Of a DNA stretch of 64,000 bases, positions 30,111-63,564 are shown one piece after another (the stretch's first letter is position 1; the number at the start of each line of letters is the position of its first letter). The stretch is from an uncultured Clostridia bacterium. GTDB lineage: Bacteria; Bacillota; Clostridia; Oscillospirales; Acutalibacteraceae. The notes under the pieces are model-generated. The model had not been told where the DNA came from and ran no database searches. It was given only the letters and a program-made list of their open reading frames with translations. The position numbers were made by a program, and so were the translations under genes. The DNA is taken from positions 1 through 64,000 of the forward strand of contig CAMNST010000011.1 in the NCBI GenBank assembly GCA_946555465.1. The letters are read 5' to 3'.

Positions 30111-30286
30111 CAAAAAATGCGCAGCCGAGGCCACGCATAAAAAACGCACACCCGACTGTCGCTAAACAAAACTAAATATACCGTAATATCTATTACTGCG
30201 TATGCTTAATAAAGGCATGCATTTTTATCAGGAGATAAAGAACACATACATAGTAATAAATATAAGAATATTCCGTTTTGTTTAGC
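30111..30286 (-). ncRNA. Structured non-coding RNA, copy A of a three-member family
   Basis: Read on the minus strand. The RNA begins with a stem whose arms are 30275-30286 and 30161-30172 (GCTAAACAAAAC with GTTTTGTTTAGC) and continues inward with further pairs. A second 13-pair stem (ATTACTATGTATG with CATACGCAGTAAT, one mismatch) and a small apical hairpin follow. A 22-base linker starting GACAGTCGG leads to the terminator hairpin 30117-30138 (loop CTCG) and a T tract. The stem starts exactly 7 bases from the -10 box, as in copies B and C. Family and function unknown. Confidence 0.75.
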
Positions 30287-30292
30287 ATTTTT

Positions 30293-30321
30293 ATTTTAGC
30301 ATACCGAAAAAACAAAGTCAA
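30293..30321 (-). promoter_or_regulatory. Promoter of non-coding RNA copy A
   Basis: Minus strand: TTGACT (30316-30321), 17-base spacer, TAAAAT (30293-30298), just beyond the thrS terminator. Confidence 0.75.
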
Positions 30322-30331
30322 CAACAACAGC

Positions 30332-30359
30332 AAAGGCTGCCTCTTACGAGACAGCCTTT
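30332..30359 (-). terminator. Terminator after thrS
   Basis: AAAGGCTGCCTC pairs with GAGACAGCCTTT around a four-base loop; the following stretch is T/G-rich rather than pure T. Confidence 0.65.
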
Positions 30360-30373
30360 CAATGCTAACAGGA

Positions 30374-32281
30374 TTATAAAGATTTTGTTTCAACTTCTTC
30401 AATAATTCGTGCAAGGAATTCGTCAAGAGTTGCCGCACCCTCATCACCGTTTTTGCGTGAACGCACGGAAATGGTGTTTGCCTCAATATCCTTATCGCCT
30501 GCAAGAATCATATAAGGCACTTTTTCAAGTTGAGCAGAACGGATTTTAAAGCCGATTTTTTCACTTCTGTCATCAATTTCGCATCGTATTCCTTTTGTTT
30601 CAAGAGCCTTTTTAACATCATAAAGGTAATCAAGATGTCTGTCGGCAATAGGAAGAAGTTTAACCTGAACAGGAGCAAGCCATGTTGGATAAGCACCGGC
30701 AAAATGCTCAGTAAGAATACCGATAAATCTTTCAATACTTCCGAATACAACTCTGTGAATCATAATCGGTCTGTGCTTTGCACCGTCAGCACCTACATAT
30801 TCAAGTTCAAATCTTTCAGGAAGTTGGAAATCAAGTTGAATTGTTCCGCACTGCCATGTTCTGCCGAGACAGTCTGTAAGGTGGAAATCAAGTTTCGGTC
30901 CATAAAATGCACCGTCGCCCTCGTTTACCTCATAGTCATAACCAAGTTCTGTAATTGCATCACGAAGTGCATCGGTAGCAATATCCCAGTCTTCTTTGGC
31001 ACCCATTGAATCTTCAGGCTGGGTTGAAAGTTCGATGTGATATTCAAAGCCAAATGTACTGTAAACCTTATTAATCAGGCTGACAACACCTTTGATTTCA
31101 TCTTTAATCTGCTCTCTTGTCATAAATATATGAGCATCATCCTGTGTGAAACAGCGAACTCTCATAAGTCCGTGAAGAGCGCCTGAAAGTTCATGTCTGT
31201 GAACAAGACCGAGTTCACCCATTCTTAAAGGCAGGTCTTTATATGAATGCATTTTTGTTTTATAAACAAGAATACCGCCCGGACAGTTCATAGGTTTAAC
31301 TGCAAAATCGGTTTCGTCAATAACCGTTGTATACATATTTTCTTTATAATGATCCCAGTGGCCGCTTCTTTCCCATAATGCGCGGTTGAGCATCATCGGA
31401 GTCTGAATTTCATCATAACCTGCCTCACGGTGAATCTCTCTCCAATAATCAACAAGAGTATTTTTAAGGATCATACCCTTTGGAAGGAAAAACGGAAATC
31501 CGGGACCTTCTTCCATAATTGTAAAGAGTTCAAGTTCCTTACCTATCTTTCGGTGATCTCTTTTCTTTGCCTCTTCAAGCATCTGCAAATGTTCCTCAAG
31601 CATAGCGGCTTTAGGGAAAGCGGTTCCGTAAACACGGCAGAGCATTTTGTTTTTAGCATCACCGCGCCAGTAAGCACCTGTGCAGTTTGTAAGTTTAAAT
31701 GCCTTTACAACTTTCATATCCATAAGGTGAGGACCTGCACAAAGTTCTGTAAACTCGCCTTGCTTATAAAAACTGATTGGCTCACCCTTTTCGGCATGTT
31801 CATTAATAAGTTCAACCTTATAAGGTTCGTTTTTCTCCTCCATAAGTTTAATTGCTTCTGCAGGAGAAAGTTCAAATTTTTCAATGTCAAAATTTTCTTT
31901 GACAATATTTTTCATTTCTTTTTCAATAGCAGCAAGATTTTCAGGGGTAAAAGCCTCTTCAACATCAAAATCATAATAGAAACCACTGTCTATTGCAGGA
32001 CCGATAGTCAGTTTAACATCGGGATAAAGCCTTTTAACAGCCTGTGCCATAATGTGTGAAGCAGTATGATTAAATGTCTTTTTACCATCTTCATCATCAA
32101 ATGTAAGCACTTCAAAAGTGCAGTCGTCTGCCACTTCTGTTCTTAAGTCTTTAACTTCGCCGTTAATTTTGCAGCAGCAGGCATTTCTGTAAAGACCCAT
32201 TGAAATTTCTTTGGTAATATCAGCAGCCGTCATCGGTGATGAATATTCATTTACAGTGCCGTCTTTTAAAGTAATTTTCAT
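30374..32281 (-). CDS. thrS: Threonine-tRNA ligase
   Basis: A 635-residue class II synthetase of normal size: TGS domain (residues 1-60), editing/SAD domain with HTASHIMAQAVKR near residue 70, catalytic core with the MNCPGG zinc-site segment and the DDAHIF motif, and a C-terminal anticodon-binding domain. It charges tRNA-Thr and edits Ser. The ATG at 32281 has GGAGG 8 bases upstream; an in-frame codon at 32302 is not supported. Expression is controlled by the T-box leader just upstream. Confidence 0.96.
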   Translation of the reverse strand: MKITLKDGTVNEYSSPMTAADITKEISMGLYRNACCCKINGEVKDLRTEVADDCTFEVLTFDDEDGKKTFNHTASHIMAQAVKRLYPDVKLTIGPAIDSGFYYDFDVEEAFTPENLAAIEKEMKNIVKENFDIEKFELSPAEAIKLMEEKNEPYKVELINEHAEKGEPISFYKQGEFTELCAGPHLMDMKVVKAFKLTNCTGAYWRGDAKNKMLCRVYGTAFPKAAMLEEHLQMLEEAKKRDHRKIGKELELFTIMEEGPGFPFFLPKGMILKNTLVDYWREIHREAGYDEIQTPMMLNRALWERSGHWDHYKENMYTTVIDETDFAVKPMNCPGGILVYKTKMHSYKDLPLRMGELGLVHRHELSGALHGLMRVRCFTQDDAHIFMTREQIKDEIKGVVSLINKVYSTFGFEYHIELSTQPEDSMGAKEDWDIATDALRDAITELGYDYEVNEGDGAFYGPKLDFHLTDCLGRTWQCGTIQLDFQLPERFELEYVGADGAKHRPIMIHRVVFGSIERFIGILTEHFAGAYPTWLAPVQVKLLPIADRHLDYLYDVKKALETKGIRCEIDDRSEKIGFKIRSAQLEKVPYMILAGDKDIEANTISVRSRKNGDEGAATLDEFLARIIEEVETKSL

Positions 32282-32322
32282 ATAAAATCCTCCATTATAC
32301 ATAAAAATAAAAAATCACCCTG

Positions 32323-32518
32323 ATAAAAATCAGGGTGAATAATATCCACGGTTCCACCTGAATTGCACAAAAAAGTGCCGCTCATACACTCTCTAACGGA
32401 AGCACCCGGCCTGTATTAAAGGCTCTCCAAGGCGGTAATCTGCTTTTTTGCCATGCGCTCACACCAACCGCACACTCTCTGAAAACATCCGAAACAGATC
32501 ATATCCTTTTCAACGATT
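32323..32518 (-). promoter_or_regulatory. T-box leader (threonine) of thrS
   Basis: Minus strand. The T-box antiterminator sequence AGGTGGAACCGTGG lies at 32346-32359. It overlaps the start of a strong terminator, TCACCCTGA pairing with TCAGGGTGA and followed by a T run (about 32310-32340). Upstream, a stem I region carries an AGAGAG motif and the triplet ACC (32434-32436), a Thr codon, as probable specifier. Uncharged tRNA-Thr would favour the antiterminator and thrS transcription. Confidence 0.9.
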
Positions 32519-32524
32519 TATATT

Positions 32525-32553
32525 ATTTTAGCACTGCTTTAATGCAATGTCAA
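32525..32553 (-). promoter_or_regulatory. Promoter of the T-box-thrS unit
   Basis: Minus strand: TTGACA (32548-32553), 17-base spacer, TAAAAT (32525-32530). Confidence 0.8.
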
Positions 32554-32615
32554 TACAAATGGATGTTATTTATAAACGATTTGTATACTTTAGTTATTCA
32601 TACAGTACTTATAAC

Positions 32616-32644
32616 TTGACATATACAAGATATAGGTGTATATT
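32616..32644 (+). promoter_or_regulatory. Promoter of rny
   Basis: TTGACA (32616-32621), 17-base spacer, TATATT (32639-32644). About 130 untranslated AT-rich bases follow before rny; no known leader was recognised in them. Confidence 0.75.
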
Positions 32645-32781
32645 ATTATAGAAGTTTTACAAACTGTTATTTTCTGCACATTAACATATATTGTAAAAAT
32701 TTCCTTGAATTTGCATTTGAACTGTACCTTTTCTGATGGTGATTATGAAAAAATACTAAAACAGAAGGAGGTGCTGTTAAT

Positions 32782-34338
32782 ATGAGTAATGTTATTATCC
32801 CAATTATTGTCGGCATAGTATGTGCCGCTATATTCGGCGTTCTTGGGTTTGTTGCAGGCGGTGAACATCGCAGAAAAACAAGCGAAAAAGAAATCGGCTC
32901 AGCAACACAGGAAGCCACAAAGATTATCAATAATGCATTAGCAGAGGCAGAGTCTACCAAAAAGGCAAGACTTGTTGAGGCTAAGGATGAAATTCACAAA
33001 CTTCGTTCCGACGCAGATAAAGAAATCCGTGAAAGAAGAAGTGAAGTTCAAAGACAGGAGACTCGTTTAAATCAAAGAGAAGAATATCTTGATAAAAGAG
33101 CCGATTCACTTGAACAAAAAACAGATGCTTTAGTTGAAAAACAGAAGCAACTTGAAGAAAAACTACTCGAAATTGACGGCATCAAGAAAAGCCAGTTTGA
33201 TATGCTGGAGCGTATATCAGGTCTTACTGAAGAAGAAGCAAAGAAACAACTTCTTGCTACTCTCAGCGAAGAACTTGATACCGAAAAAAGCAAACGTATT
33301 ATGGAATACGAGCAGATGATTCGCGACCAGAGCGATGTTCTGGCAAGAGAAATTATCGGCACTGCTATCCAGCGTTGTGCAGCAGATCACACAGCAGAAA
33401 CAACCGTATCTGTTGTTGCACTTCCCAGTGATGAAATGAAGGGCAGAATTATCGGCAGAGAGGGCAGAAACATCCGCTCTATCGAAACAATCACAGGTGT
33501 TGAACTCATTATTGACGATACACCGGAAGCAATCACAATCAGTTCTTTTGAACCTGTCAGAAGAGAAATTGCAAGACTTACTCTTGAACGTCTTCTTCAG
33601 GACGGACGTATTCATCCGACAAAGATTGAAGAATACTTTGAAAAAAGCACAAGAGAAGTTAATGCAGTTATTAAACAAGAGGGTGAAAAAGCAGTCTTGT
33701 CTGCAAATTGCGGACAAATTCATCCGGAACTTGTTAAACTTCTCGGTAAACTTAAATACCGTACTTCTTATGGTCAGAGTGTGCTTAAACACAGCCTTGA
33801 GGTATCCTACATAGCCGGTCTTATGGCTGCCGAACTCGGAGCAGACGAAAAACTCGCAAGACGAGCAGGTCTTCTTCACGATATCGGCAAAGCACTTGAC
33901 CATGAAATGGAAGGTTCTCATATTGCTCTCGGCGTTGAATTTGCCAGAAAGTATAAAGAAAACGAAGGCGTTGTTCACGCAATCGCCGCCCACCACGGTG
34001 AAATCGAATGCAAAACTGTTGTTGCCTGTCTTGTTCAGGCTGCTGACGCAGTTTCGGCATCAAGACCGGGTGCAAGAAGAGAAAATATTGAAAACTACAT
34101 CAAAAGGCTCCAGCAACTTGAAGAAATTTCTACAAGTTTTGAAGGTGTTGAAAGAGCATATGCTATTCAGGCAGGCCGTGAAGTAAGGGTTATGGTTAAA
34201 CCAAACGTTATCAACGACGAAAAAATGCCTTATATCGCCCGTGAAATTGCAAAGCGAATTGAAAATGAACTTGAATATCCGGGCCAGATTAAAGTTAACA
34301 TCATACGTGAGTCACGAGCAAGTGATATTGCAAAATAA
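32782..34338 (+). CDS. rny: Ribonuclease Y
   Basis: A 518-residue membrane-anchored endoribonuclease that starts mRNA decay in Firmicutes. It has an N-terminal transmembrane helix (about residues 4-26), a long charged coiled coil to about residue 190, a KH domain with [10 protein letters not shown], and an HD domain whose metal-binding His-Asp pair is H366-D367 in [20 protein letters not shown] lies about 9 bases before the ATG. The only PNPase gene seen in the window is about 30 kb away. Confidence 0.96.
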
Positions 34339-34340
34339 AC

Positions 34341-34375
34341 AAAAATGCCGGCAAATGACAAATGTCGGCATTTTT
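34341..34375 (+). terminator. Terminator after rny
   Basis: AAAAATGCCGGCA pairs with TGTCGGCATTTTT around a nine-base loop. Confidence 0.8.
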
Positions 34376-34397
34376 CATTAACAGAAGGAGTATAATT

Positions 34398-34688
34398 ATG
34401 ATTAAACATATTGTGTGTTTTAAATTAAAGGACAACAGCAAAGAAAACTGCACCAAAACTGCAGAGATTCTTAAATCTATGGACAAGATGGTTAAAGAGA
34501 TAAGAGAAATTGAAGTTGGTATGGATTTTCTTCACTCTCCGCGTTCATATGATATCATACTTCAGGTAACTCTTGATAATGAAAAGGCATTTGATGATTA
34601 CCAGAATGATGATTACCACTGCAGTGTTGTAAAGAAGCATATGCACAGCGTTGCCGAAAGTTCAATCGCAGTTGACTATGAAATTTAA
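34398..34688 (+). CDS. Dabb (stress-responsive alpha/beta barrel) domain protein
   Basis: A 96-residue ferredoxin-like protein starting MIKHIVCFKLKD and containing the SYDIILQVTLDNEKAFDDYQ segment typical of Dabb-domain proteins. Such proteins dimerise through a beta barrel; some act as small-molecule cyclases, most are uncharacterised. The ATG at 34398 has AAGGAG 8 bases upstream; the longer frame overlaps the rny terminator and is rejected. It probably shares the rny transcript by read-through or has a weak promoter of its own. Confidence 0.8.
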   Translation: MIKHIVCFKLKDNSKENCTKTAEILKSMDKMVKEIREIEVGMDFLHSPRSYDIILQVTLDNEKAFDDYQNDDYHCSVVKKHMHSVAESSIAVDYEI

Positions 34689-34689
34689 C

Positions 34690-34733
34690 AATAGGGCTGT
34701 TCACATATATGCGAACAGCCCTATTATTTATAA
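34690..34733 (+). terminator. Terminator after the Dabb gene
   Basis: AATAGGGCTGTTC pairs perfectly with GAACAGCCCTATT around a ten-base loop, followed by ATTTAT. Confidence 0.7.
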
Positions 34734-34815
34734 AAAATATAACAGATATTCCTGGATTTTCTGTTTTTACCATTATTATAATATATTAATTTAAATTATT
34801 ATTTTTATATGTTCA

Positions 34816-34844
34816 TTGACATATAATATACCATTTGTTATAAT
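34816..34844 (+). promoter_or_regulatory. Promoter of the plus-strand exopolysaccharide operon
   Basis: TTGACA (34816-34821), 17-base spacer, TATAAT (34839-34844): an exact consensus promoter, 36 bases before the first gene. Confidence 0.85.
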
Positions 34845-34880
34845 AAATTTGTATTATAGTCTTAACGTGCGGAGGAAATT

Positions 34881-35675
34881 ATGGAAGATAATAAAGAAAT
34901 AGAAATTGACTTAAGAAAAATATTTTCTATGCTGAAAAAGAAAGTAGTATTCATTGTAATGATTTCTTTAATCGGCGCAATACTCGCAGGCTGTGTGACA
35001 AACTTTTTCATTGAACCTAAGTATACTGCCAATGTAAAACTTCATGTATACAGCAGCAGCGACAGCCGTCTCGGTGCCAGCAGCAGCATTTCATCAAGTG
35101 AATTTGATGCATCTCAGAAACTTGTTAATACTTATCTTGTTGTTGTAACAAGTCACACTTTCCTTGAAAAAGTTGCCGACGAATACGGCAACTCAATAAC
35201 CGTAAATGAAATAAAAAACATGATGTCGTGCGCTCAGATTGATGATACGCTTGCATTCAGAGTAAATATAACAAGCACAGATCCTCAGAAGGCTATGGAT
35301 ATTGCAAATATAATTGCCGATGAATGCCCGGATGAAATCGTCAGAGTGCTTAAAGCCGGCGGTGTTGAAGTAATTGACTATGCAATTCTTCCAACCTCAC
35401 CTTCTTCACCTAATCTAAAAAAGAATGTCATGATTGGTTTCGTTGCCGCATTTGCAATTTCATTTGTTGTTTTCCTTATTAAAGAACTTTTTGATACAAG
35501 CATTAACGATGAAAAAGATCTTGAAAAAGAATTTGATATCCCGATTCTCGGCACAATTCCAAGACTTCTGCCTGTAACAGAAAAAACGAAACATACTGAA
35601 AGCGACTCGGAGGGAAACCTTTCTCCGCCGAAACCTGCTTTTGATTTTGCATCTAACGAAAAGGAGGAGAAGTAA
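34881..35675 (+). CDS. Polysaccharide chain-length determinant/kinase activator (Wzz-CpsC-YveK type)
   Basis: A 264-residue membrane protein with two transmembrane helices (about residues 24-44 and 176-196) and an extracytoplasmic domain between them. It ends in a cytoplasmic tail. This is the CpsC/CapA form in which the kinase is a separate protein. It controls chain length and activates the tyrosine kinase encoded next. The first gene of the operon; the kinase GTG start follows its stop codon directly. Confidence 0.88.
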   Translation: MEDNKEIEIDLRKIFSMLKKKVVFIVMISLIGAILAGCVTNFFIEPKYTANVKLHVYSSSDSRLGASSSISSSEFDASQKLVNTYLVVVTSHTFLEKVADEYGNSITVNEIKNMMSCAQIDDTLAFRVNITSTDPQKAMDIANIIADECPDEIVRVLKAGGVEVIDYAILPTSPSSPNLKKNVMIGFVAAFAISFVVFLIKELFDTSINDEKDLEKEFDIPILGTIPRLLPVTEKTKHTESDSEGNLSPPKPAFDFASNEKEEK

Positions 35676-36497
35676 GTGACCAAAAACACTGCAAGTTCTA
35701 AAAGAAATAAAAAGAGCAAAGCCAAAAATCAGGGCTTTTCAAGAGATGATCAGAAAAAAATGCTCTGTGCTGAATCTCCTTTTGTTGTTAAAGAGGCTTA
35801 CAACTCAATAAGAACAAACCTTTTATTCTCTCAGCAGGGAGAAAAATGTCCGGTATTTGTAATTTCAAGTCCAAGTGCCAACAACGGTAAATCAATCAAC
35901 TCAATAAATATGGCTATTTCATTTGCTCAAATGGGCAAAAATACGCTTCTTATTGACGCAGATATGCGCAACCCCACCGTTCACCGTATGTTTTCAATTC
36001 CTGTAAAGAACGGACTTTCCGAAATTCTTGCAGGTCTTACAGACAGCATTTCGGTTACAAAAACAGATGTAGAAAATCTTTCTGTTCTTACAGCAGGAAA
36101 AATACCTCCTAACCCTGCAGAACTTCTTTCTTCTGCACGTATGGATAAACTGCTTGAATTTGTTAAGGCTCATTACGACTGTGTATTTATTGACACCCCT
36201 CCCATTAACCTTGTTACAGACTCAACCTCTTTTGCCACAAAGGCAACAGGATACATTCTTGTTGTTAAGTCAGGAACCACCGATCTTCAGGAGGTAAAGG
36301 CAACTGTCGGCGCTTTAAAGCACATTGGTGCATCAATCGTAGGCTTTATTCTCAATGATGCCAACGCAACCGGAAAACGTTTTTCGGGTTATTACAAAAA
36401 AGGCTATAATTCGAAATACAAATATAACTATAATTACAACTATAGTTACGGATATTCCAATTATTATGGTTACAGCAGATACGGCAGGTATAAATAA
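35676..36497 (+). CDS. Tyrosine-protein kinase of the CpsD/CapB/YwqD type
   Basis: A 273-residue BY-kinase. Walker A is SPSANNGKS, Walker A' is LLIDADMRNP and Walker B is CVFIDTPP. The C-terminus is a Tyr cluster with about fifteen Tyr in the last 37 residues, the autophosphorylation site that controls polymer export. The GTG start follows an AAGGAGGAG site within the preceding gene's end. No partner phosphatase of the CpsB/YwqE type is seen in the window. Confidence 0.92.
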   Translation: MTKNTASSKRNKKSKAKNQGFSRDDQKKMLCAESPFVVKEAYNSIRTNLLFSQQGEKCPVFVISSPSANNGKSINSINMAISFAQMGKNTLLIDADMRNPTVHRMFSIPVKNGLSEILAGLTDSISVTKTDVENLSVLTAGKIPPNPAELLSSARMDKLLEFVKAHYDCVFIDTPPINLVTDSTSFATKATGYILVVKSGTTDLQEVKATVGALKHIGASIVGFILNDANATGKRFSGYYKKGYNSKYKYNYNYNYSYGYSNYYGYSRYGRYK

Positions 36498-36549
36498 ACT
36501 GCCGTTTGCATTTTCAATAAGAAATTAACTGGCACAGTGGGTGTATAAA

Positions 36550-38037
36550 ATGAGCAATCGAAGAGAAATTCAAAAGCAGTTTGAGTTTTGGCTTGGTATT
36601 GTTGCAATATCATCATCTCAAATCCTTGCTTATATTTTTTCGTCTTTTATAAATAAATTAGAGAATCATTCATACCAGGTATGGCTGAGTTATATTGCAA
36701 TAATAACTGTTTCATACTGTGCAACATTTTTTTGTTTTTATTCGCCTTTGAATCTGCTTAAAAGAAGCAGAAAAATGGAATTTTCGTCAACGCTCAGAAA
36801 CTGCACTTTTACATATGCTTTGTTTGCAGTTTTAATGCTTTTATCAAAAAATCCGATTATTCAGTCGCGTTATATGTTTATAAGCAGTTTTGTGCTATTC
36901 TTTTCCTTCTCTCTTTTAGGACGCTATATATTAAAGAAGGTACTTCTGAAAAGAATACGGGGCAGCAAACTTGCAACAATGACCGGCATTATTACAGACT
37001 ATCAAAGGGCAGAACATTTTGTTACAGAATTAAGCACGGACTGGTCCAAAAACATCAAAGCCATTGCCTTGGTAGATGCAATTTATGAAAACGGAAGTTA
37101 CAGATGCAAAAAAGATCAGAACTCTGATGATTTTTCTCAGGATAATTATGAAATTGTTAATGACATACTCGGAGTTCCCGTTGTTGCCAATAAAGAAAAC
37201 ATTATGGGATGGATACGCACCGCATCACTTGACGAAGTCTTTATCAACCTGAGCGAAATTCCGCAGGACGAAACTTCATGTTTTATTGAAGAACTTGAAG
37301 ATATGGGTGTAACGGTACACGTAAATATTCCGTCTCTTGAAAAAATCGTTGAAAACAGCAAATTTGAAAATATAGAATGCACTGTAAAAGCAGGATATCC
37401 AATGGCAATTCTTTCACCTGCCACTCATAACAGCAATGCACTTATTATAAAAAGAGTAATGGATATTATCGGCGGTCTTGCAGGATCAATTATTTCTCTT
37501 CCAATCATTCTTTTAACCGCAATACCGCTTAAAATTGAATCTCCCGGCCCTCTTATTTTTAAACAGCAAAGAGTAGGACGAAACGGGCGTGTGTTCAATA
37601 TATACAAAATACGTTCAATGTATGTTGATGCAGAAGAACGGAAAAAAGCCCTTATGGAGCAGAATAAGATGGACGGTCATATGTTTAAGATGGACAATGA
37701 CCCGAGAATTACAAAAGTTGGAAAATTCATAAGAAAATACAGCATTGACGAACTTCCTCAGTTCTGGAATGTTCTTAAAGGCGATATGAGTCTTGTGGGA
37801 ACAAGACCGCCCACAATAGATGAATTTGAAAAATATGAAAGCCACCACAAAAGAAGACTGTCACTTCAGCCGGGAATTACAGGTATGTGGCAGGTATCAG
37901 GCAGATCGGATATTCAGGATTTTGAAGAGGTTGTAAAACTTGACTGCGAATATATTGATAACTGGTCAATCGGGCTTGATATTAAAATTCTTACCAAAAC
38001 AGTTAGTGTTGTGCTAACACACAAAGGCGCAGAATAA
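36550..38037 (+). CDS. Polyprenyl-phosphate sugar-1-phosphate transferase (priming glycosyltransferase)
   Basis: About 495 residues. Four N-terminal membrane helices (to about residue 130), a soluble CoA-binding-like domain, then a membrane segment and the bacterial sugar transferase domain from about residue 300 (KRVMDIIGGLAGSIISLP, GPLIFKQQRVGRNG, KIRSM, SIDELPQFWNVLKGDMSLVGTRP). It starts each repeat unit by moving a sugar phosphate onto undecaprenyl phosphate. Related to WcaJ/CpsE. The ATG at 36550 is chosen; a GTG at 36541 is in frame. Confidence 0.9.
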   Translation: MSNRREIQKQFEFWLGIVAISSSQILAYIFSSFINKLENHSYQVWLSYIAIITVSYCATFFCFYSPLNLLKRSRKMEFSSTLRNCTFTYALFAVLMLLSKNPIIQSRYMFISSFVLFFSFSLLGRYILKKVLLKRIRGSKLATMTGIITDYQRAEHFVTELSTDWSKNIKAIALVDAIYENGSYRCKKDQNSDDFSQDNYEIVNDILGVPVVANKENIMGWIRTASLDEVFINLSEIPQDETSCFIEELEDMGVTVHVNIPSLEKIVENSKFENIECTVKAGYPMAILSPATHNSNALIIKRVMDIIGGLAGSIISLPIILLTAIPLKIESPGPLIFKQQRVGRNGRVFNIYKIRSMYVDAEERKKALMEQNKMDGHMFKMDNDPRITKVGKFIRKYSIDELPQFWNVLKGDMSLVGTRPPTIDEFEKYESHHKRRLSLQPGITGMWQVSGRSDIQDFEEVVKLDCEYIDNWSIGLDIKILTKTVSVVLTHKGAE

Positions 38038-55549: not shown

Positions 55550-56155
55550 TTAATTTTCTCCGTAACAGCAACTTTGCTGTCGTTTTTTATTCCACTGTGA
55601 TCTGCCGTTGCTGCTGATTTTTTTCGCAGGAACTCCCGCTACGGCAATATCCTCTTCGGTTATACTTTTTGTTACAACTGCATTTGCACCTACAGCAACA
55701 TTATCAGCAATTTTTACTGCGCCGATAACCTTTGCACCAACACCTAAAATAACAGATTTTCCGAGAGTAGGAACATCGTCACAAGGACCGCTTGCAACTA
55801 CTGCGGTATTAATATGAAAAGCGCAGTTTTCACCAACTATTGCATTTCTGTTAATAAGAACAGGACCTACATGCATTATTTTTAAACCTTTGCCGCATGT
55901 ATTAACCGGAATATGAAGCGCATAACGATTTTGCATTCTTAAAAGCCTTATTTTATATATAGAGCCCAAAATTTTCTTATTTGAATTTAAATAATACTCC
56001 GTTTTGCGTAATATTATCTGATGCTTACATAACAAATCATTTTCTGTAATCGGAAAAATACATCGTATTCCTTTTGAAGAATATTGCGATTTTTCATATT
56101 TCAACCATTCTTTGAGTTGGCTTTTTGACTTAATTCGTTCAGATTCTGGCAGCAT
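55550..56155 (-). CDS. Serine acetyltransferase-like (CysE-type) hexapeptide acyltransferase
   Basis: A 201-residue protein with the CysE-like active-site segment [17 protein letters not shown] and left-handed beta-helix repeats ending in [10 protein letters not shown]. In polysaccharide loci such CysE-like proteins acetylate sugars; true serine acetyltransferase activity is less likely here. It ends one base before ugd starts. Confidence 0.82.
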
Positions 56156-56169
56156 TCAACGCTTTCCTT

Positions 56170-57234
56170 TCACATATAAAACTTTTTATACCACTGGGCA
56201 AAATTCCTGAGTCCGTCACGAAGAGAGGTTGATGGTTTAAAACCAAAATCTCTTTCAAGTGCAGTTGTATCGGCATAAGTTATAGGAACATCACCCGGCT
56301 GCATTGGAACAAGTTCTTTATGTGCTTCAAAATCATAGTCTTTATCAAGAACGCCTGCATTAATAAGTTCTTCCTGCAATATAGTTACAAAATCAAGAAG
56401 GTTTTCAGGCTGATTGTTTCCGATGTTATAAACCGAATACGGTGCAATGGGCAAACCGTCTTCGCCAAGAGCCTGTTCGGGCGCTTTTTGCATTACGCGA
56501 AGAACACCTTCAACAATATCATCAACATATGTAAAATCACGTTTACAGTTACCATAGTTAAAAATTTGAATTGTTTTTCCTTCACGCAGTTTATTGGTAA
56601 AGCCGAAATATGCCATATCAGGCCTGCCTGCAGGTCCGTAAACGGTAAAGAAACGCAAACCTGTTGACGGAATATTATAAAGTTTTGAATAGGCATGCGC
56701 CATAAGTTCATTGCTTTTTTTGGTTGCAGCATAAAGCGAAACCGGATTGTCAACTTTATCATCCGTACTGTAAGGAACCTTTTTATTTGTGCCATAGACA
56801 GAAGAACTTGAGGCATAAACCAAGTGCTCAACACCACTTTTTCCGTCATCATTGGAGTGACGGCATGCCTCAAGAATATTATAAAAGCCAATAATATTTG
56901 ACTCAATATAAGCATCCGGATTACTTATTGAATAACGAACACCTGCCTGTGCGGCAAGATTTACAACCACCTGCGGATTATGCTCTGAAAAAATACCATC
57001 AATCAAAGATTTATCGGTAATAGAACCTTTAATAAATGTAAAATTATCAAAAGAAGATAATTGGCTCAGCCTTTCCTCCTTAATGCGAACATCGTAATAA
57101 TCGTTCATATTATCAATACCGATAACTCTGGTATCGGCAAAATCGGTCAAGATTCTTTTGGCTAAAAATGAACCGATAAAACCTGCCGCACCGGTAATAA
57201 ATACTGTTTTGTTTGCTAAACTGATACTTTTCAT
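56170..57234 (-). CDS. NAD-dependent epimerase, probable UDP-glucuronate 4-epimerase
   Basis: A 354-residue extended SDR. The NAD motif is TGAAGFIGSFLAKRIL; the catalytic Tyr-Lys pair lies in SLYAATKKSNELMAHAY, and RFFTVYGPAGRPDMAYF is typical of the UDP-glucuronate 4-epimerases. It is the first gene of the minus-strand operon. With ugd it should supply UDP-galacturonate. Confidence 0.87.
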   Translation of the reverse strand: MKSISLANKTVFITGAAGFIGSFLAKRILTDFADTRVIGIDNMNDYYDVRIKEERLSQLSSFDNFTFIKGSITDKSLIDGIFSEHNPQVVVNLAAQAGVRYSISNPDAYIESNIIGFYNILEACRHSNDDGKSGVEHLVYASSSSVYGTNKKVPYSTDDKVDNPVSLYAATKKSNELMAHAYSKLYNIPSTGLRFFTVYGPAGRPDMAYFGFTNKLREGKTIQIFNYGNCKRDFTYVDDIVEGVLRVMQKAPEQALGEDGLPIAPYSVYNIGNNQPENLLDFVTILQEELINAGVLDKDYDFEAHKELVPMQPGDVPITYADTTALERDFGFKPSTSLRDGLRNFAQWYKKFYM

Positions 57235-57290
57235 AACACACCTGCTTTATAATAAACACAAAATTTTAGGTAACTTTAAGATACTAATAA

Positions 57291-57320
57291 ATTATATCAT
57301 AATTGTCTTTATATAGTCAA
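57291..57320 (-). promoter_or_regulatory. Promoter of the minus-strand exopolysaccharide operon
   Basis: Minus strand: TTGACT (57315-57320), 18-base spacer, TATAAT (57291-57296). The area is extremely AT-rich. About 57 bases separate the -10 from the first start codon. Confidence 0.75.
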
Positions 57321-57404
57321 CTTATATATATAAATTTATATATAATATAGAAAGTTTTATATAAACTCAACAAATTATTTATTGTCCGCGTGTAATAATA
57401 TGCA

Positions 57405-57444
57405 TAAAAAAAGACGGATTTCGTCACAAAAAAAGGAAATCCGC
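57405..57444 (-). terminator. Terminator after the aldolase-family gene
   Basis: Minus strand: GGCGGATTTCC pairs with GAAATCCGTC and is followed by seven T. Confidence 0.8.
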
Positions 57445-57465
57445 CATAACAATTTTATTTATTTT

Positions 57466-58446
57466 TTAGAAGTTATCAAGAAGTGATTTGTAAAATTCAC
57501 AGTAATCCTGACGCTTTTCAGCAGTGAATGCCATTGCCTCACGAGGATGACGGTTAAGTTGACCGGTAAGCATATACTGGATATCATAACCCCATACCAC
57601 TCCGCTTTCTCTAAGCGGAACAATATACTTTTCAATAAATGTGAGAAGGCTGTAAAGGCTGTATTTCGGGTTCTTTAAAAATCCGAGTAAAAGTTCCATG
57701 GCACAGTTACCTGAACCTCTGCCCATACCCGATGCGGTTGCGTCAAGATAAGAAACACCATAAGAAAGCGTTTCAATCGTGTTTGCAAATGCAAGATTTT
57801 GATTGTTGTGAGCATGAAAACCTATTGCTTTTCCGTATTTCTCACCTATTTCAAGGTATTTTTTAGAAAGATTTGCAGCAGATTCAGGATAAAGAGAACC
57901 ATAAGAATCAACAAGATAAATAACATCAACATGACTCTGTGCGCCCAGCATTTCAAGAGCGGCATCAATCTGCTCGGTATTTGCCTGGCTGATAGCCATA
58001 ATGTTACAGGTGGTTTCATAACCGAGATTATGAAAATGCTCTATCATTTCGATAGCAGCAGGAATCTGATGAATATAGCAGGCAACGCGAACCATATCAA
58101 TAACAGACTCTGATTTCGGAATGAAATCCTCTTTGAAATCGCATCTGCCGACATCTGCCATAACAGCAATTTTCATATCAGAAACATTTTCGCCGACTAT
58201 GCTTCTTATATCTTCCTCACTGCAGAATTTCCATTTTCCGAAATCTTTGGGATCAAAAAGATTTTTAGATGCGCGGTAACCGAATTCCATATAATCAACA
58301 CCGCTCTTTACATTTGTCTTGTAAAGTTCGGTTACAAATTCATCTGTAAACTCAAAATTGTTGCACAAACCGCCGTCACGAATTGTGGCATCAAGCACTT
58401 TAACATCCGTGCGAACGGTCATTAAATTTCCTTTTCTTGGAGCCAT
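57466..58446 (-). CDS. HMGL-like (DRE-TIM) aldolase/lyase family protein
   Basis: A 326-residue TIM-barrel enzyme. LDATIRDGGLCN is the metal-binding start motif of the DRE-TIM metallolyases (HMG-CoA lyase, isopropylmalate synthase, 4-hydroxy-2-oxovalerate aldolase), and GFHAHNNQNLAFAN supplies the His-x-His ligands. It lacks the C-terminal parts of the synthases, so an aldolase or lyase reaction is likely, but the substrate is unknown. GAGGT precedes the ATG. It has its own promoter and a perfect inverted repeat in its leader. Confidence 0.8.
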   Translation of the reverse strand: MAPRKGNLMTVRTDVKVLDATIRDGGLCNNFEFTDEFVTELYKTNVKSGVDYMEFGYRASKNLFDPKDFGKWKFCSEEDIRSIVGENVSDMKIAVMADVGRCDFKEDFIPKSESVIDMVRVACYIHQIPAAIEMIEHFHNLGYETTCNIMAISQANTEQIDAALEMLGAQSHVDVIYLVDSYGSLYPESAANLSKKYLEIGEKYGKAIGFHAHNNQNLAFANTIETLSYGVSYLDATASGMGRGSGNCAMELLLGFLKNPKYSLYSLLTFIEKYIVPLRESGVVWGYDIQYMLTGQLNRHPREAMAFTAEKRQDYCEFYKSLLDNF

Positions 58447-58489
58447 TTTTAATACCTCTTTTAATTTTACTTTTTTATTTCACTTTCGT

Positions 58490-58515
58490 GCTTTAAAGTC
58501 TAATCACTTTAAAGC
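58490..58515. promoter_or_regulatory. Perfect 10-bp inverted repeat in the aldolase gene leader
   Basis: GCTTTAAAGT and ACTTTAAAGC separated by six bases, 11-36 bases downstream of the -10 box. It could be an operator or a small leader hairpin. Confidence 0.6.
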
Positions 58516-58525
58516 GATTGCGTTT

Positions 58526-58554
58526 ATTATAGCAGACCCTCAATCAATAATCAA
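58526..58554 (-). promoter_or_regulatory. Promoter of the aldolase-family gene
   Basis: Minus strand: TTGATT (58549-58554), 17-base spacer, TATAAT (58526-58531). Confidence 0.75.
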
Positions 58555-58574
58555 GAGGAAATTTAAAAAAAATA

Positions 58575-58604
58575 AAAAATCTCCGATTTAAGCGGAGATT
58601 TTTC
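58575..58604 (-). terminator. Terminator after the YeiH-type gene
   Basis: AAAAATCTCCG pairs with CGGAGATTTTT around a seven-base loop, followed by T/A-rich sequence on both sides. Confidence 0.8.
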
Positions 58605-58622
58605 AAATTATATATATTTTTC

Positions 58623-59699
58623 TTACCAATAACCAAGAACATGCTGCATAACAAGGCTTACGGCTGCGATTGCAATCCAGCAGCAAAGCCCCATAAGAAT
58701 AGGCTTTCCGCCCTTTTTTACAAGATTCACAATATTGGTGTTAAGACCGATTGCACACATAGCCATTGCTATAAAGAATTTAGCAAGCCATTTTGCACCG
58801 TGAACAAAATTTTCATTATAAAAAGTTGTAAATCCGCTCTGAGGCAAAAGTGAAACAAGCGTTGTTATAAGAGAAGCGGCAACGAAGTAGAGAATAAACC
58901 ATGGAAAAATCTTTTTAAATGAGATTTTTGTTCCTTCTCTGCCCTGCTTTTTTGCCTGCTTTGTTCGGATAAAGGCAAGAACAAGAGTAATGGGAATAAT
59001 TGCAAGCGTACGTGTAAGTTTAACAGTTGTTGCCTGTGCAAGAACAAGTCCATCGGTATTTTTCATACTATCCCACGCCGAAGCCGCAGCAGTTACGGAA
59101 GATGTATCATTAACGGCAGTGCCTGCAAAAAGAGCAAAGCCGTTATCTGTAAGTCCGATAGCATTTCCGATTGTAGGAAAAATCAGAGCCGCAATTACAT
59201 TGAAAAGAAAAATTACTGATATTGACTGCGCAATTTCCTCATCATCGGCATCTATAACCGGTGCAGTAGCAGCGATTGCAGAGCCACCGCATATTGAAGA
59301 ACCGACACCGACTAAAATGGAAACCTTTTTGTCAACCTTCAGTATCTTGCACATAATAAATGCCATTATAAGCGAAACGGCAATGGTGGAAATAATCACA
59401 GGAAGACTTTCGCCGCCGACGGAAAGAACAGTTTTGATATTAAGAGTAAATCCCAAAATGATAACTGCCCACTGCAGAATTTTCTTTGAAGTAAAAGTAA
59501 GCCCCGGTTTCATCTTTTCATCTGATGAAAGATTTTTAAATATGAGCGAAATCACCATTCCTATTACAATGGCAAAAACGGGTGCACCGATAATTTCAAA
59601 TGAAAAACCGCCAATATTAATGCCTGCAAGAAGTGTGGATATTCCTGCAATTATTATACAGCTCAGAATGCCTAAGCCGTTCTTTTTTACAAAAGTCAT
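58623..59699 (-). CDS. YeiH/UPF0324 family membrane protein (putative sulfate exporter)
   Basis: A 358-residue protein with about ten hydrophobic helices. GSSICGGSAIAATAPVI near the middle and FAGTAVNDTSSVTAAA are family hallmarks. Members are annotated as putative sulfate or sulfonate exporters, based on limited evidence. The ATG at 59699 has GAGGAGA upstream; a longer frame to 59723 overlaps the upstream PHP gene and lacks support. Confidence 0.83.
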   Translation of the reverse strand: MTFVKKNGLGILSCIIIAGISTLLAGINIGGFSFEIIGAPVFAIVIGMVISLIFKNLSSDEKMKPGLTFTSKKILQWAVIILGFTLNIKTVLSVGGESLPVIISTIAVSLIMAFIMCKILKVDKKVSILVGVGSSICGGSAIAATAPVIDADDEEIAQSISVIFLFNVIAALIFPTIGNAIGLTDNGFALFAGTAVNDTSSVTAAASAWDSMKNTDGLVLAQATTVKLTRTLAIIPITLVLAFIRTKQAKKQGREGTKISFKKIFPWFILYFVAASLITTLVSLLPQSGFTTFYNENFVHGAKWLAKFFIAMAMCAIGLNTNIVNLVKKGGKPILMGLCCWIAIAAVSLVMQHVLGYW

Positions 59700-59709
59700 T
59701 TTTCTCTCC

Positions 59710-60375
59710 TCAATAGTTTTCAATAAGTTTAAAATCCTGCGATTTAAGCACTGTTAAAAGTTCAGAATTATCTTTCATTTTTTTATTGGTAATTATTCCG
59801 CCTTTGGCAAGGTTCTTAACGGTATGAAAATCAGAACCCGAAACAATAAGTTTGTTGTTTTCTTTTGCCCAGTCAAGTGCCTTTTCATTTAATGATTTTT
59901 CGGTTTTGCCGTTAAAAACTTCAACACCGTCAATATAATCAGGATTGCAGCGGCGAATACCAGTTCTGAAGGGGTGAGCCTGAAAAACAAGACAGCCCTT
60001 TTCTTTTGAACGTTCAAAAACTTCTTTTTCCCAGACATTGAGAAGATTACCGCCGTTATAAAGAAAATCCTCATCAATACCGTAAATCAGATAATCATTT
60101 GCCGTGAAATAATGGCGCAGTTCTACGCCGAGAAAAACATCAAAATCATCTCCGGCCGCTTTTTTCATACGCCTGTATCCACTGAGATAAAAATCTATTT
60201 CTTTCTGTGGGCAGGCAAGGCGCGACACTTTAAATGTCATAGGACTGTAATGGTCGGTAACAACAATTCCGCTGTATCCTTTTTCCTTATATAATTTTAC
60301 AATTTCTTCAGGCTCTACTCTTCCGCAGCGCGAAACGCAGCCTGTGTGACAATGCATTTCATATTTATATTCCAT
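59710..60375 (-). CDS. PHP domain phosphoesterase
   Basis: A 221-residue protein starting MEYKYEMHCHT, with the PHP metal motifs H-x-H (residues 8-10), VVTDHYS and GVELRHY, FQAHPFR and SGSDFH. PHP proteins hydrolyse phosphoesters with a metal cluster (histidinol phosphatase, PolC and nucleotide-phosphatase types). No Shine-Dalgarno site is seen before the ATG; the closest -10-like TATAAT is only some 25 bases upstream, so the mRNA may have a very short leader. It is 10 bases before the YeiH-type gene and co-transcribed with it. Confidence 0.8.
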   Translation of the reverse strand: MEYKYEMHCHTGCVSRCGRVEPEEIVKLYKEKGYSGIVVTDHYSPMTFKVSRLACPQKEIDFYLSGYRRMKKAAGDDFDVFLGVELRHYFTANDYLIYGIDEDFLYNGGNLLNVWEKEVFERSKEKGCLVFQAHPFRTGIRRCNPDYIDGVEVFNGKTEKSLNEKALDWAKENNKLIVSGSDFHTVKNLAKGGIITNKKMKDNSELLTVLKSQDFKLIENY

Positions 60376-60412
60376 AGATAAAAGGATAACACATTATAAT
60401 AATTTTAGCAAC

Positions 60413-60447
60413 TAAAAAATGGCTATCCTTTAATAAGGATAGCCATT
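60413..60447 (-). terminator. Terminator after the acyl-CoA ligase gene
   Basis: Minus strand: AATGGCTATCCTT pairs with AAGGATAGCCATT around a four-base loop, followed by TTTT. Confidence 0.85.
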
Positions 60448-60465
60448 TCACCGGATATTATCCTG

Positions 60466-62148
60466 TTATTTAAGAACCTTGAAATCAACCTTTCCGATTT
60501 TTGTTCTCGGAAGTTCATCAATATAAACAACCTCTTTCGGAACAGACCATTTTGAAAGGTTCTGCAAACCGAAATCAATAATTTTCTTTGTAAGTTCTTC
60601 TTCGCTGTCACCGGCATATTTTTTGTTCTTTACAACAAAAAGTTTCAACTGGGTTTTGCCCTCTTCACCGGTACCGATTACACAGCAGTCATAAATCTCT
60701 GCCATTGCTCTGTATGATTCTTCAATAAATGAAGGATAAACAAGATAGCCGCTGATTTTGTATACTCTCTTGAGTCTCTGACGATAATATATATCGCCTG
60801 TTTCTTCTTTAATAAAGCACATATCACCTGTATGAAGCCATACTTTGCCGTCATCATGCTTAACAAGCACTTTGTTTGTTTCATCAGGGTCATGATAATA
60901 GCCTTCCATAAGTGTCGGACCGTAAATGCACAATTCACCGTCTTCACCCTTAACTTCTTCGGTTGTTCCCGGTTTTACGGTCATTGCCTCGATATTATAA
61001 CAAGGAATACCGATACAGCCCTGAGGAGCCTCTCTTCTCGGATCGGTAAATGAGCATACGGTTACACACTCGGTAAGACCGTAACCCGAAACGAAATGGC
61101 ATTTTGCACCGTTTTCTTTAAGAAGAACATCCATTTTTTCTGTAAGAGAATAAGGAACAACGTCTCCGCCTGAACCGATAAGTTTCATATTTGACATATC
61201 AATTCCTTTGAGGTAGCCTGCCTTATGCACCTTTTCAAAGAAATCAGGAACACCGAAAATATAATTAATACCATACTGCTTGATTGCATCACTGCACATT
61301 TTGGCATCAAACTGCGGGAAAAGAGCCTGCGCCATACCTGTGCAAATTGAAACATGCATGCAAAGAGCAAAACCAAAACCGTGGAAAACAGGAAGGGCGG
61401 TAAGCATAGTGTCTGTTTTTGCATCTGTTTTCATTTCAAGAACAGTTTCAACAACATCAACAAGTTGATAAGAAAGATTGTTGATAGCCTCGTTGCAAAG
61501 TTGAACGCCCTTGGGGTTACCGGTTGTTCCGCCTGTCATCATAATTGCAGCAACTGCAAGCGAATCTTCGGCAATTTCAACTTTTCCGCCGTCGGCAAGG
61601 AATTTTTTGCCTTCTTTAAGAAATTCTGTCCATTCAATATTCTTATGAACATCTGTTGCCGGTGCTGTTTTGCCCTTGATTTTCTTTTTATAAACCTGAT
61701 TTGCAATAAAACCATAAGGTGTTTTAGGGAAATAGCCTGCTGTTTTGCAGCGAACAAGGGTAAGATTTTTCATACCCTGAAAAGATTTTTCAGAAACATC
61801 AAAACAAAATGCAAACTTTGCACCAACAAGATTTACTGCATATTCAGCCTCTGATTTAACAGAAAGCGGATGAAGCATTGATGCAATCGCACCAATCTTA
61901 TTAACAGCGTAAATGGCTGTTATGCACTGAGGCATATTGGGAGCACAGATAATAACTCTGTCACCCTTGCGCACGCCGTTAGCAACAAGAGCCGCTGCAC
62001 AAAGATCAACCATTTCTTCTGCCTTTTTCCATGTTATTGTATTTTTATAATAGTAAAAACAAGGTTCATCAGGATGCTGAGCAGCCGAATCGGCAAACTT
62101 TTCATACATTGTTTTTTTTACATCATACTTCGTTGTGTAATTAATCAT
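60466..62148 (-). CDS. AMP-dependent acyl-CoA synthetase/ligase
   Basis: A 560-residue ANL-superfamily enzyme. The P-loop-like motif is MMTGGTTGNPKG; further motifs are YGLTE, LHTGDMCF and a C-terminal LPRTKIGKVDFKVL with the catalytic Lys. It activates a carboxylic acid, probably a fatty acid, with ATP and CoA. The ATG at 62148 has CGGAGGA upstream. A likely -10 (TATAAT, 62220-62225) lies about 70 bases before the start with a weak -35. Confidence 0.85.
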   Translation of the reverse strand: MINYTTKYDVKKTMYEKFADSAAQHPDEPCFYYYKNTITWKKAEEMVDLCAAALVANGVRKGDRVIICAPNMPQCITAIYAVNKIGAIASMLHPLSVKSEAEYAVNLVGAKFAFCFDVSEKSFQGMKNLTLVRCKTAGYFPKTPYGFIANQVYKKKIKGKTAPATDVHKNIEWTEFLKEGKKFLADGGKVEIAEDSLAVAAIMMTGGTTGNPKGVQLCNEAINNLSYQLVDVVETVLEMKTDAKTDTMLTALPVFHGFGFALCMHVSICTGMAQALFPQFDAKMCSDAIKQYGINYIFGVPDFFEKVHKAGYLKGIDMSNMKLIGSGGDVVPYSLTEKMDVLLKENGAKCHFVSGYGLTECVTVCSFTDPRREAPQGCIGIPCYNIEAMTVKPGTTEEVKGEDGELCIYGPTLMEGYYHDPDETNKVLVKHDDGKVWLHTGDMCFIKEETGDIYYRQRLKRVYKISGYLVYPSFIEESYRAMAEIYDCCVIGTGEEGKTQLKLFVVKNKKYAGDSEEELTKKIIDFGLQNLSKWSVPKEVVYIDELPRTKIGKVDFKVLK

Positions 62149-62292
62149 ATTTTCCTCCGACCTGACACCCGCGAGTTTTATGACAAAACATAGCAAAGTG
62201 TGCATTTTCTAACGTTTTGATTATAGCAGATAAAAAATAACAATTCTACACATTATTGAATAGTTTATTTTTATTTAATATTTTAAAAATAT

Positions 62293-62320
62293 TTGACATT
62301 TTTTGCTTATATGATATTAT
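62293..62320 (+). promoter_or_regulatory. Promoter of the DUF2238-like gene
   Basis: TTGACA (62293-62298), 16-base spacer, TATTAT (62315-62320). Confidence 0.75.
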
Positions 62321-62356
62321 AAGAATATTAAAAACCATCATAACAGGAGGCACACA

Positions 62357-63037
62357 GTGGCATATAAAATAAAAAAAGACCCTGTTAAAAAAATACCCAA
62401 ATTTCAGTTTGCATTCTGGATAATTGTCAGAATATCCATGCTTATATGCGCCGCGTATTCATTTGTTCAAGGCGACCTTGTAATGGGATTTGAAAGCGTT
62501 TTCTGCTTTATATTCACCCATTTGTGGGACATGTTTCAGGTTTTCGGCAACGGCAGTTTTATAGAAGAAGTTCCGCCGCTGAGCCAGACGATGCTGAATA
62601 TAATCATTTTCGTCGGCATTGTTATCGGCTCGTATCTGGGTCTGTTTGACAGACTATGGTGGTTTGACAATATGATGCATATCTTATCCGGTGTGGTATG
62701 CGCCGTTTTCGGATATGATTTTGCCTGTATCATTCAACGAAAAAAAGGGCAGTGTGCCGCAACGCTTGCAGCAATCTTTTCGCTGATGTTTGCCCTTTCC
62801 ATTGCAGTTGGATGGGAATTTTACGAATTTCTGATGGACACGCTCCACGGAACAAATCTGCAGTTATCAAAAGCGGGCGAAGAAACTGCTATGTTTGACC
62901 TTTCAAAATACAACAATGAATTTGGTTATCTCGGTTTGGTTGACACGATGACGGATATGATGATGAATGCAATCGGCGGTATTGCAGGCATGATTTTTAT
63001 GATTATTCTGAGAAACAGAAAAAAGAAGAAAAAATAA
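62357..63037 (+). CDS. DUF2238-like (YjdF-type) membrane protein
   Basis: A 226-residue protein with about six helices. LWWFDNMMHILSGVV and VGWEFYEFLMD are the conserved His/Asp/Glu motifs of this family, whose function is unknown. The start is a GTG with AGGAGG upstream. It has its own promoter and terminator. Confidence 0.78.
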   Translation: MAYKIKKDPVKKIPKFQFAFWIIVRISMLICAAYSFVQGDLVMGFESVFCFIFTHLWDMFQVFGNGSFIEEVPPLSQTMLNIIIFVGIVIGSYLGLFDRLWWFDNMMHILSGVVCAVFGYDFACIIQRKKGQCAATLAAIFSLMFALSIAVGWEFYEFLMDTLHGTNLQLSKAGEETAMFDLSKYNNEFGYLGLVDTMTDMMMNAIGGIAGMIFMIILRNRKKKKK

Positions 63038-63041
63038 AACC

Positions 63042-63074
63042 GGCTGTCCTGAAAAATCAGGGCAGCCTTTTTTC
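63042..63074 (+). terminator. Terminator after the DUF2238-like gene
   Basis: GGCTGTCCTGA pairs with TCAGGGCAGCC around a four-base loop, followed by a T run. The next 100 bases (63075-63173) are AT-rich with nothing recognisable. Confidence 0.8.
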
Positions 63075-63173
63075 ATTTGTCGCAACAAACGAGACATGCG
63101 TTTTTGAGGATAAAATTTAAAACAATAATATAATAAACATTCCTCGACCGATAGATAGATTAACCCCCCTAAA

Positions 63174-63346
63174 ATAAAAAATGCGCAGCCGAAGCCACGC
63201 ATAAAAAACACATGCTCCAACTGTCGCGAAACGAAACCAAATATTGTCTCATATGAAACAAAGTATGATTAAATAGAGCCTGCATTTTTATCAAAAATAA
63301 AAAATACACACTTCGCTTCAATACCTAATATTCAGTTTCATTTCGC
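63174..63346 (-). ncRNA. Structured non-coding RNA, copy B
   Basis: Minus strand. The outer stem arms are 63335-63346 and 63226-63237 (GCGAAATGAAAC with GTTTCGTTTCGC), continuing to about 20 pairs. An inner 13-pair stem (GAAGCGAAGTGTG with CATACTTTGTTTC) has no mismatch apart from G-T pairs. Then comes the linker starting GACAGTTGG and the terminator hairpin 63181-63202 with a C(TTCG)G tetraloop and a T tract. The stem begins 7 bases from the -10 box. Confidence 0.8.
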
Positions 63347-63352
63347 AATTTG

Positions 63353-63381
63353 AATATACCACATTACCATAATTATGTCAA
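63353..63381 (-). promoter_or_regulatory. Promoter of non-coding RNA copy B
   Basis: Minus strand: TTGACA (63376-63381), 17-base spacer, TATATT (63353-63358). The -35 begins immediately after the terminator of copy C. Confidence 0.8.
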
Positions 63382-63382
63382 T

Positions 63383-63564
63383 AAAAAATGCACAGCCGAA
63401 GCCGTGCATAAAAAACGCATAACTCCAACTGTCGCCAAACAAATTCGCAATAACCAAGTAATACAAAAATACTGTGGGTACGCAAAATAAGAGTATGCAT
63501 TTTATTAAAAATAAAAAGCACCCCTCTGTTTTTTGTATATTAAATTATTACGAATTTATTTGGC
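63383..63564 (-). ncRNA. Structured non-coding RNA, copy C
   Basis: Minus strand. The outer stem arms are 63551-63564 and 63434-63447 (GCCAAATAAATTCG with CGAATTTGTTTGGC), extending by six more pairs. Inner pairing joins ATACAAAAA with TTTTTGTAT and GGGTGC with GCGTACCC. The linker starts GACAGTTGG. The terminator hairpin 63388-63409 is ATGCAC/GTGCAT with a C(TTCG)G tetraloop; its stem differs from copies A and B by a compensatory change. Confidence 0.8.

Follow-up and report, generated by a model that had tools for sequence, protein, structure and literature searches.

A promoter-fused RNA of Clostridia, probably a transcription-attenuation leader and probably exchanged independently of the genes behind it

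We analyzed a stretch of 64,000 nucleotides (nt) from an uncultured Clostridia bacterium of the Acutalibacteraceae (GenBank assembly GCA_946555465.1, contig CAMNST010000011.1, positions 1 to 64,000; hereafter the window), which contains three copies, A, B and C, of a structured RNA. Our analysis, computational throughout, indicates that this RNA is very probably a promoter-fused transcription-attenuation leader, composed of a long rod of variable sequence, a linker with two alternative pairing partners and an intrinsic terminator. We also consider it highly likely that the leader is exchanged independently of the gene behind it. The RNA is uncatalogued: it occurs in 91 of the 391 genomes of a class-level sample, with 34 copies in one of them, yet it has no Rfam entry.

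A sequence-only reading had described three minus-strand units, each with a -35/-10 promoter, a first stem base 7 nt past the -10 box, a long stem that differs in sequence among the copies, an A/T apical hairpin, and a GACAGTYGG linker followed by a terminator. Re-reading of the sequence recovered the units at the same positions and all of these parts in A, B and C, with T6 at the terminator (Table 1). The folds beat every one of 200 dinucleotide shuffles made for each copy (z -6.58 for A, -6.91 for B and -8.60 for C), and the rods of the tandem neighbours B and C are dissimilar (identity 0.66). The count of three copies is correct within the window but not genome-wide, where covariance model R1, built from 55 relatives, gives 34 matches; applied to this genome and to related Clostridia, the search takes the RNA far beyond three copies. 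The linker is more than a spacer, as either the apical strand or the terminator's 5' half can be its pairing partner.

Most copies in relatives are 5' leaders, with the terminator just before the Shine-Dalgarno (SD) sequence of a gene. Of 161 matches in relatives, one cut by a contig end was dropped and identical cores were collapsed, which left 135 copies; an SD sequence with an open reading frame (ORF) of at least 40 amino acids (aa) follows within 200 nt in 117 and within 40 nt in 91 of them, compared to ORF starts within 40 nt of 148 among 2680 random positions of the same loci (5.5%). Thus, the earlier claim of an independently transcribed RNA stands as regards the copies' own promoter and terminator, but not as regards stand-alone action as a general rule. 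A family of stand-alone small RNAs (sRNAs), to which the genes behind would be incidental, could explain the promoter and terminator as well as the ORF-less copies in the host genome, B and C among them, but the excess of closely following ORFs over random positions makes it very improbable. The promoter is also held at a fixed distance: a hexamer resembling the -10 box ends 6 nt ahead of the rod in 75 of 76 copies from the genus and in 47 of 57 others, and both boxes match at least 4/6 positions in 71/76 and 47/57, respectively, versus 97/650 and 146/665 in two controls. A 4/6 match to the -10 box alone is common in the controls (305/650 and 429/665), whereas neither the constant spacing nor the combination of both boxes is.

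Judged from their sequences, the downstream genes appear to be diverse and biased towards surface, secreted and unnamed proteins. Signal-like N-termini, called by a simple hydrophobicity rule, were found in 58 of 100 downstream ORFs of at least 100 aa and in 75 of 398 other SD-preceded ORFs from the same loci (Fisher p 8e-14), a contrast that could be inflated because the control ORFs come from all six frames and may include spurious ones. Pfam searches with 111 of the 113 downstream proteins (two short ones were left out) matched 41 families; among the 25 of these that were listed, the BspA-type LRR_5 occurs in 13 proteins, the double zinc ribbon in 5, CHAP, Zn_Ribbon_1, SHOCT and a TFIIB-type ribbon in 4 each, AMP-binding in 3, and others in fewer. 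In the host genome, many copies are followed, just past the terminator, by a strong SD sequence and an ORF for a 91-aa protein.

Selection on RNA pairing, proposed from the three copies alone, is borne out by covariation of the rod and terminator pairs in a larger alignment. In this alignment, which was fitted to the model, 95.4% of rod and terminator cells are paired versus 35-49% for slid partners, for 41 of the 49 pairs at least one sequence carries changes on both sides, and double-change cells number 786 versus 249 in shuffles that leave relatedness in, with none of 500 shuffles as high. RNAalifold, run on 29 host copies, did not predict the rod; it predicted the apical:linker helix unprompted, with six of the seven covarying pairs (among 24) in that helix. 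Since the rod closes between the apical strand and the linker, their pairing would form a pseudoknot.

Of 164 sequences, 158 could be parsed, and in these the partners of the linker were analyzed further. Apical:linker duplexes formed within a sequence are better than those with permuted partners (z -8.8, 0/5000), and so are duplexes between the linker and its own terminator half (z -8.9, 0/5000), while two control pairings under the same permutation test gave z -0.2 and -1.6. Both signals recur in the host genome, the genus and the wider set, with z -5.3, -3.4 and -6.4 for apical:linker and z -2.4, -5.3 and -6.0 for linker:terminator. At single positions, apical G/A is associated with linker C/U (counts 120/11/2/19, p 1e-14; one further sequence fits neither), and GCUC/ACUC with GAGC/GAGU (118/23/2/9, p 1e-5). 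The antiterminator is predicted to be more stable than the terminator alone by more than 1 kcal/mol in 143 of 158 sequences, and it is the minimum free energy fold in 130. Rod, terminator, both linker partners, promoter spacing and position before genes can all be read from these sequence comparisons. The feature that marks attenuator leaders in general, namely an intrinsic terminator with a mutually exclusive antiterminator before a gene, is found here in sequence, energies and coevolution alike. Two relatives' copies, L072 and L095, have a terminator 3' half that reads ...GACTGTC, complementary to the start of the linker; they are apparently degenerate attenuators.

The coevolution of the linker with both of its partners, together with the antiterminator energies, leads to a model in which the start site, the ON/OFF assignment and the order of co-transcriptional events are inferred. 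RNA polymerase would start on the rod's first base or one beside it, and the rod would then fold, with the 3' strand of the apical hairpin, AAAAAYRCAUGCUC, partly open. The linker would have two mutually exclusive partners, the apical strand and the terminator. In the putative ON state, it would pair with the terminator's loop and 5' half to form an antiterminator, and polymerase would read into the gene; in the putative OFF state, it would pair with the apical strand in a long-range pseudoknot, so that the antiterminator would be blocked, the terminator would fold and transcription would stop. The choice would be set by a signal that stabilizes or opens the apical region, candidates being a small molecule, a protein, an RNA or a physical cue. 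Each part of such a three-way switch is testable by changing one strand.

Two alternatives are forms of this model that name the trigger. The RNA could be a ligand-binding riboswitch, with the apical region and pseudoknot as the aptamer and the surface and secreted genes as its regulon, a reasonable possibility that we nevertheless hold only tentatively: the conserved apical/linker core, the attenuator platform and the large number of copies preceding genes of a biased set would fit it, but conservation, as judged by eye, lies mostly in pairing strands with no large unpaired core, the fixed distance to the promoter is unusual for riboswitches, and there is neither an Rfam match nor anything that points to a ligand. 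Alternatively, and to us somewhat doubtfully, a factor acting in trans could decide how the linker pairs, for instance an RNA-binding antiterminator, a NusG paralogue, or an sRNA such as the ORF-less copies with an "anti-linker" complementary to rod end and linker. This would be in line with the tandem ORF-less units such as B and C, and with the anti-linker (z below -3) found behind 5 of 17 host copies without the 91-aa ORF, including B, where it could serve as a second OFF hairpin or as a trans-acting RNA. On the other hand, the anti-linker is rare in other groups (2/16, 1/21, 3/93 and 1/12), so that the case for it as a general feature is weak, and a genome search with copy A returned other copies, the query's reverse complement and some short matches of marginal score, partner genes not having been systematically sought.

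Several observations count against the leader and its proposed switch. The permutation z-scores given above leave relatedness in; a third apical position is not significantly associated with the linker (p 0.14); and the lengths of the two rod helices, whose matching would be a sign of fold-back, did not match (rho -0.27), in a test with noisy hinge assignment and 3 of 92 rods unassigned. The 135 copies are pattern hits or best-scoring loci rather than a random draw, and 18 of them, some near contig ends, have no ORF within 200 nt. Several host copies, including B and C, also have no ORF behind them; some units may therefore act alone.

Leader and gene evidently part company, as near-identical rods mostly stand before unrelated genes. 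Pairs of RNAs that are 85% or more alike across 90 nt or more number 60. ORFs are present on both sides in 55 of them, and in 50 of these 55 pairs, which are not mutually independent, the genes are unrelated (blastp E 1e-3); one such pair is identical over 130 nt in two species. The same attenuator is thus found before unrelated genes, as in mobile attenuators. In the host genome, 20 pairs of copies have ORFs at least 90% alike, and their rods are hardly closer than average (identity 0.74 vs 0.70), which means that the histories of leader and gene are uncoupled there. About 10-13 of the 135 copies (e.g. L054, L112, L070 and L089) share a block before the promoter, consisting of a terminator-like CGGTCTGTTTTT, a palindrome GGATTTGTCTTTACAAATCC and then TATGCTCGCTACA, which suggests a larger exchanged unit.

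We compared the rods of 128 copies from 27 genomes (29 host copies and the 99 among the matches listed for congeners), and the figures that follow hold for these copies. The nearest rod lies in another genome in 111 of 126 cases; pairs at least 85% alike number 0 of 587 within genomes versus 47 of 7541 between genomes; and in the 80 most similar pairs, promoter spacers stay close to background similarity (0.49 vs 0.45). There is a weak sign that similar rods are avoided within a genome (3.3 expected, P 0.036; P 0.18 without the host genome). The absence of same-genome rods at least 85% alike, set against their recurrence at 85-100% across species, could suggest distinct rod types, which might be read by distinct signals, or kept apart against crosstalk, with genes swapped behind them. 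In this reading, the RNA would be an exchangeable, promoter-fused switch, a plug-in controller of surface and accessory genes across the class with the variable rod as an address and not just a support, a reading that we regard as unlikely but worth stating.

Much of the same evidence could be read as the trace of a selfish or mobile element, where the unit spreads as DNA and its effects on neighbours are incidental. Rods that are nearly identical yet precede unrelated genes (50 of 55 pairs), the upstream block and the uncoupled histories in the host would all be expected of it. We consider this explanation improbable in view of the strong covariation, including that of the linker switch, the placement just before the SD sequence, and the gene bias; moreover, exchange and function are compatible, and the RNA was not matched in phage records, plasmid records or viral contigs, although no search was aimed at transposases near the copies. 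If leaders do move independently of genes, regulatory modules would travel without their genes.

The RNA is distributed widely among relatives of the host. The apical 17-mer occurs in 26 of 60 genomes of the genus, the host included, and its reversed control in none; a gapped pattern matched 66 genome-contig stretches with titles naming Clostridia-type organisms, many from rumen or gut, and one Bacteroides, and had no match in viral contigs. In overlapping samples, each containing the host and drawn with stricter filters, R1 matched 65 of 80 genomes at the genus level (46 of 51 good ones), 84 of 250 at the family level (53 of 135 genera), 95 of 295 at the order level and the above 91 of 391 at the class level, where the architecture of the copies is unchanged. 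In a phylum sample of 299 genomes, with at least nine others from the same order or class, the host was the sole match. In one genome (G008, contig C60, 23366-24333; L280, L284, L292 and L295), four copies stand in tandem at a spacing of about 265 nt, and their rods are 69-76% alike in the five pairs compared.

The earlier statement that the RNA belongs to no known class, and is not 6S RNA, agrees with our searches, in which no Rfam family fits. Rfam 15 over the whole window gave a single match, a T-box elsewhere, and none at the RNA copies; among the rows obtained at E up to 5 in the surroundings of A, B and C, none came near the gathering score of its family (best E 0.044); and in twenty relatives' loci at E up to 0.05, the four rows returned (two tRNAs, one weak match over one of the tRNAs, and one CRISPR repeat) all lie off the RNA. 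Neither the 6S covariance model nor the T-box model RF00230 matched at the RNA copies.

Riboswitches, T-box leaders and their kin carry a mutually exclusive terminator and antiterminator before the SD sequence. Our RNA resembles them in this arrangement, but it is unmatched in Rfam, has a promoter at a fixed distance, pairs the tip of a long sequence-variable rod with the linker, and precedes a very mixed gene set. 6S RNA is likewise a rod of about 180 nt with its own promoter; the present RNA differs in the lack of a 6S match in Rfam, its dozens of copies, its terminator switch and its place as a leader. The order of structured RNA, terminator and gene is shared with type III toxin-antitoxin RNAs such as ToxI, but here no short tandem repeats were seen in the RNA, and the downstream genes are mostly unrelated to each other. 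The 25 families listed of the 41 matched by the 111 downstream proteins include no toxin of the ToxN/CptN/TenpN type. If the leader model holds, the genes under its control would form a large regulon with surface, secreted and unnamed members.

A literature search over titles and abstract openings found no description of this RNA. Two publications come closest in concept. Naville and Gautheret (2010; PMC2965389) describe "mobile attenuators", related attenuators upstream of unrelated genes, which are explained as insertion-sequence terminators; by comparison, here the whole promoter-rod-switch module recurs before unrelated genes, with strong covariation. Passages of the human-microbiome RNA catalogue of Fremin and Bhatt (2021; PMC8040213) report 508 candidates directly upstream of genes, among which parts of this RNA might be included; those passages do not describe it.

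Table 1. Coordinates of the RNA copies and associated features in the window
Feature	Position	Strand	Remarks
Copy A unit	30111-30286	minus	
Copy A promoter	30293..30321	minus	-35 TTGACT, -10 TAAAAT
Copy A rod	30161..30286	minus	
Copy A rod 5' strand	30275-30286	minus	GCTAAACAAAAC
Copy A rod 3' strand	30161-30172	minus	GTTTTGTTTAGC
Copy A apical strand	within 30211-30229	minus	GATAAAAATGCATGCC
Copy A linker	30139..30160	minus	predicted to pair with apical strand or terminator 5' half
Copy A intrinsic terminator and U run	30112..30138	minus	
Gene behind copy A	29481..30041	minus	186 aa; ATG 70 nt past the T-run
Copy B unit	63174-63346	minus	
Copy B promoter	63353..63381	minus	-35 TTGACA, -10 TATATT; 1 base past copy C terminator
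Copy B rod	63226..63346	minus	apical strand within 63274-63292
Copy B linker and terminator	63176..63225	minus	linker 63203-63225, terminator 63176-63202
"Anti-linker" behind copy B	63074..63100	minus	complementary to copy B's rod end plus linker
Copy C unit	63383-63564	minus	
Copy C promoter	63571..63600	minus	-35 TTGACT, -10 TATAAT
Copy C rod	63434..63564	minus	apical strand within 63488-63506
Copy C linker and terminator	63383..63433	minus	linker 63410-63433, terminator 63383-63409

With copy A as query, the host assembly yielded 37 matches at E up to 1, mostly further copies, some of them in tandem pairs or triplets, and a few that are marginal or the reverse complement of the query. Extraction by terminator sequence yielded 32 copies, of which 29 with promoter and rod were kept and three with degenerate 5' parts were set aside. 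Four contig ends (C2 start, C14 start, C11 end and C12 end) lie in or within about 250 nt of RNA copies or the 91-aa gene, and the true copy number may therefore exceed 34. Two host copies, L012_+4385 and L028_+4433, have the inner rod in common (rod identity 0.83) but share neither outer stem nor linker, a hint that recombination may have occurred within the rod.

The 91-aa protein has 12 full-length matches in the host genome, as well as fragments and a distant relative. It matched no family above cut-off in Pfam or NCBIfam, the PHROG rows were weak, it was found in none of 59 congeners, and pattern scans of genome and viral contigs returned nothing. A tie between the RNA and this protein was rejected, as the RNA is widespread and the protein was not found beyond the host genome. 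A conserved peptide in the apical region was likewise rejected by eye, since the reading frames of B and C differ.

The 186-aa protein encoded behind copy A has an N-terminus that matches DUF6809 (PF20648, E 1.1e-11), while its C-terminal part is a distant relative of the 91-aa protein (profile E 4.4e-7, single-sequence E 0.003). The tandem copies B and C lack a convincing gene directly behind them; a 105-aa frame on the same strand (63220 to 62903) starts inside the terminator region of B and overlaps a convergent 226-aa ORF, and we take it to be putatively spurious. The T-box leader detected in the window (RF00230, 103.7 bits, 32328-32522, minus strand) lies upstream of a 642-aa ORF (30374-32302), which we take to encode a putative threonyl-tRNA synthetase.

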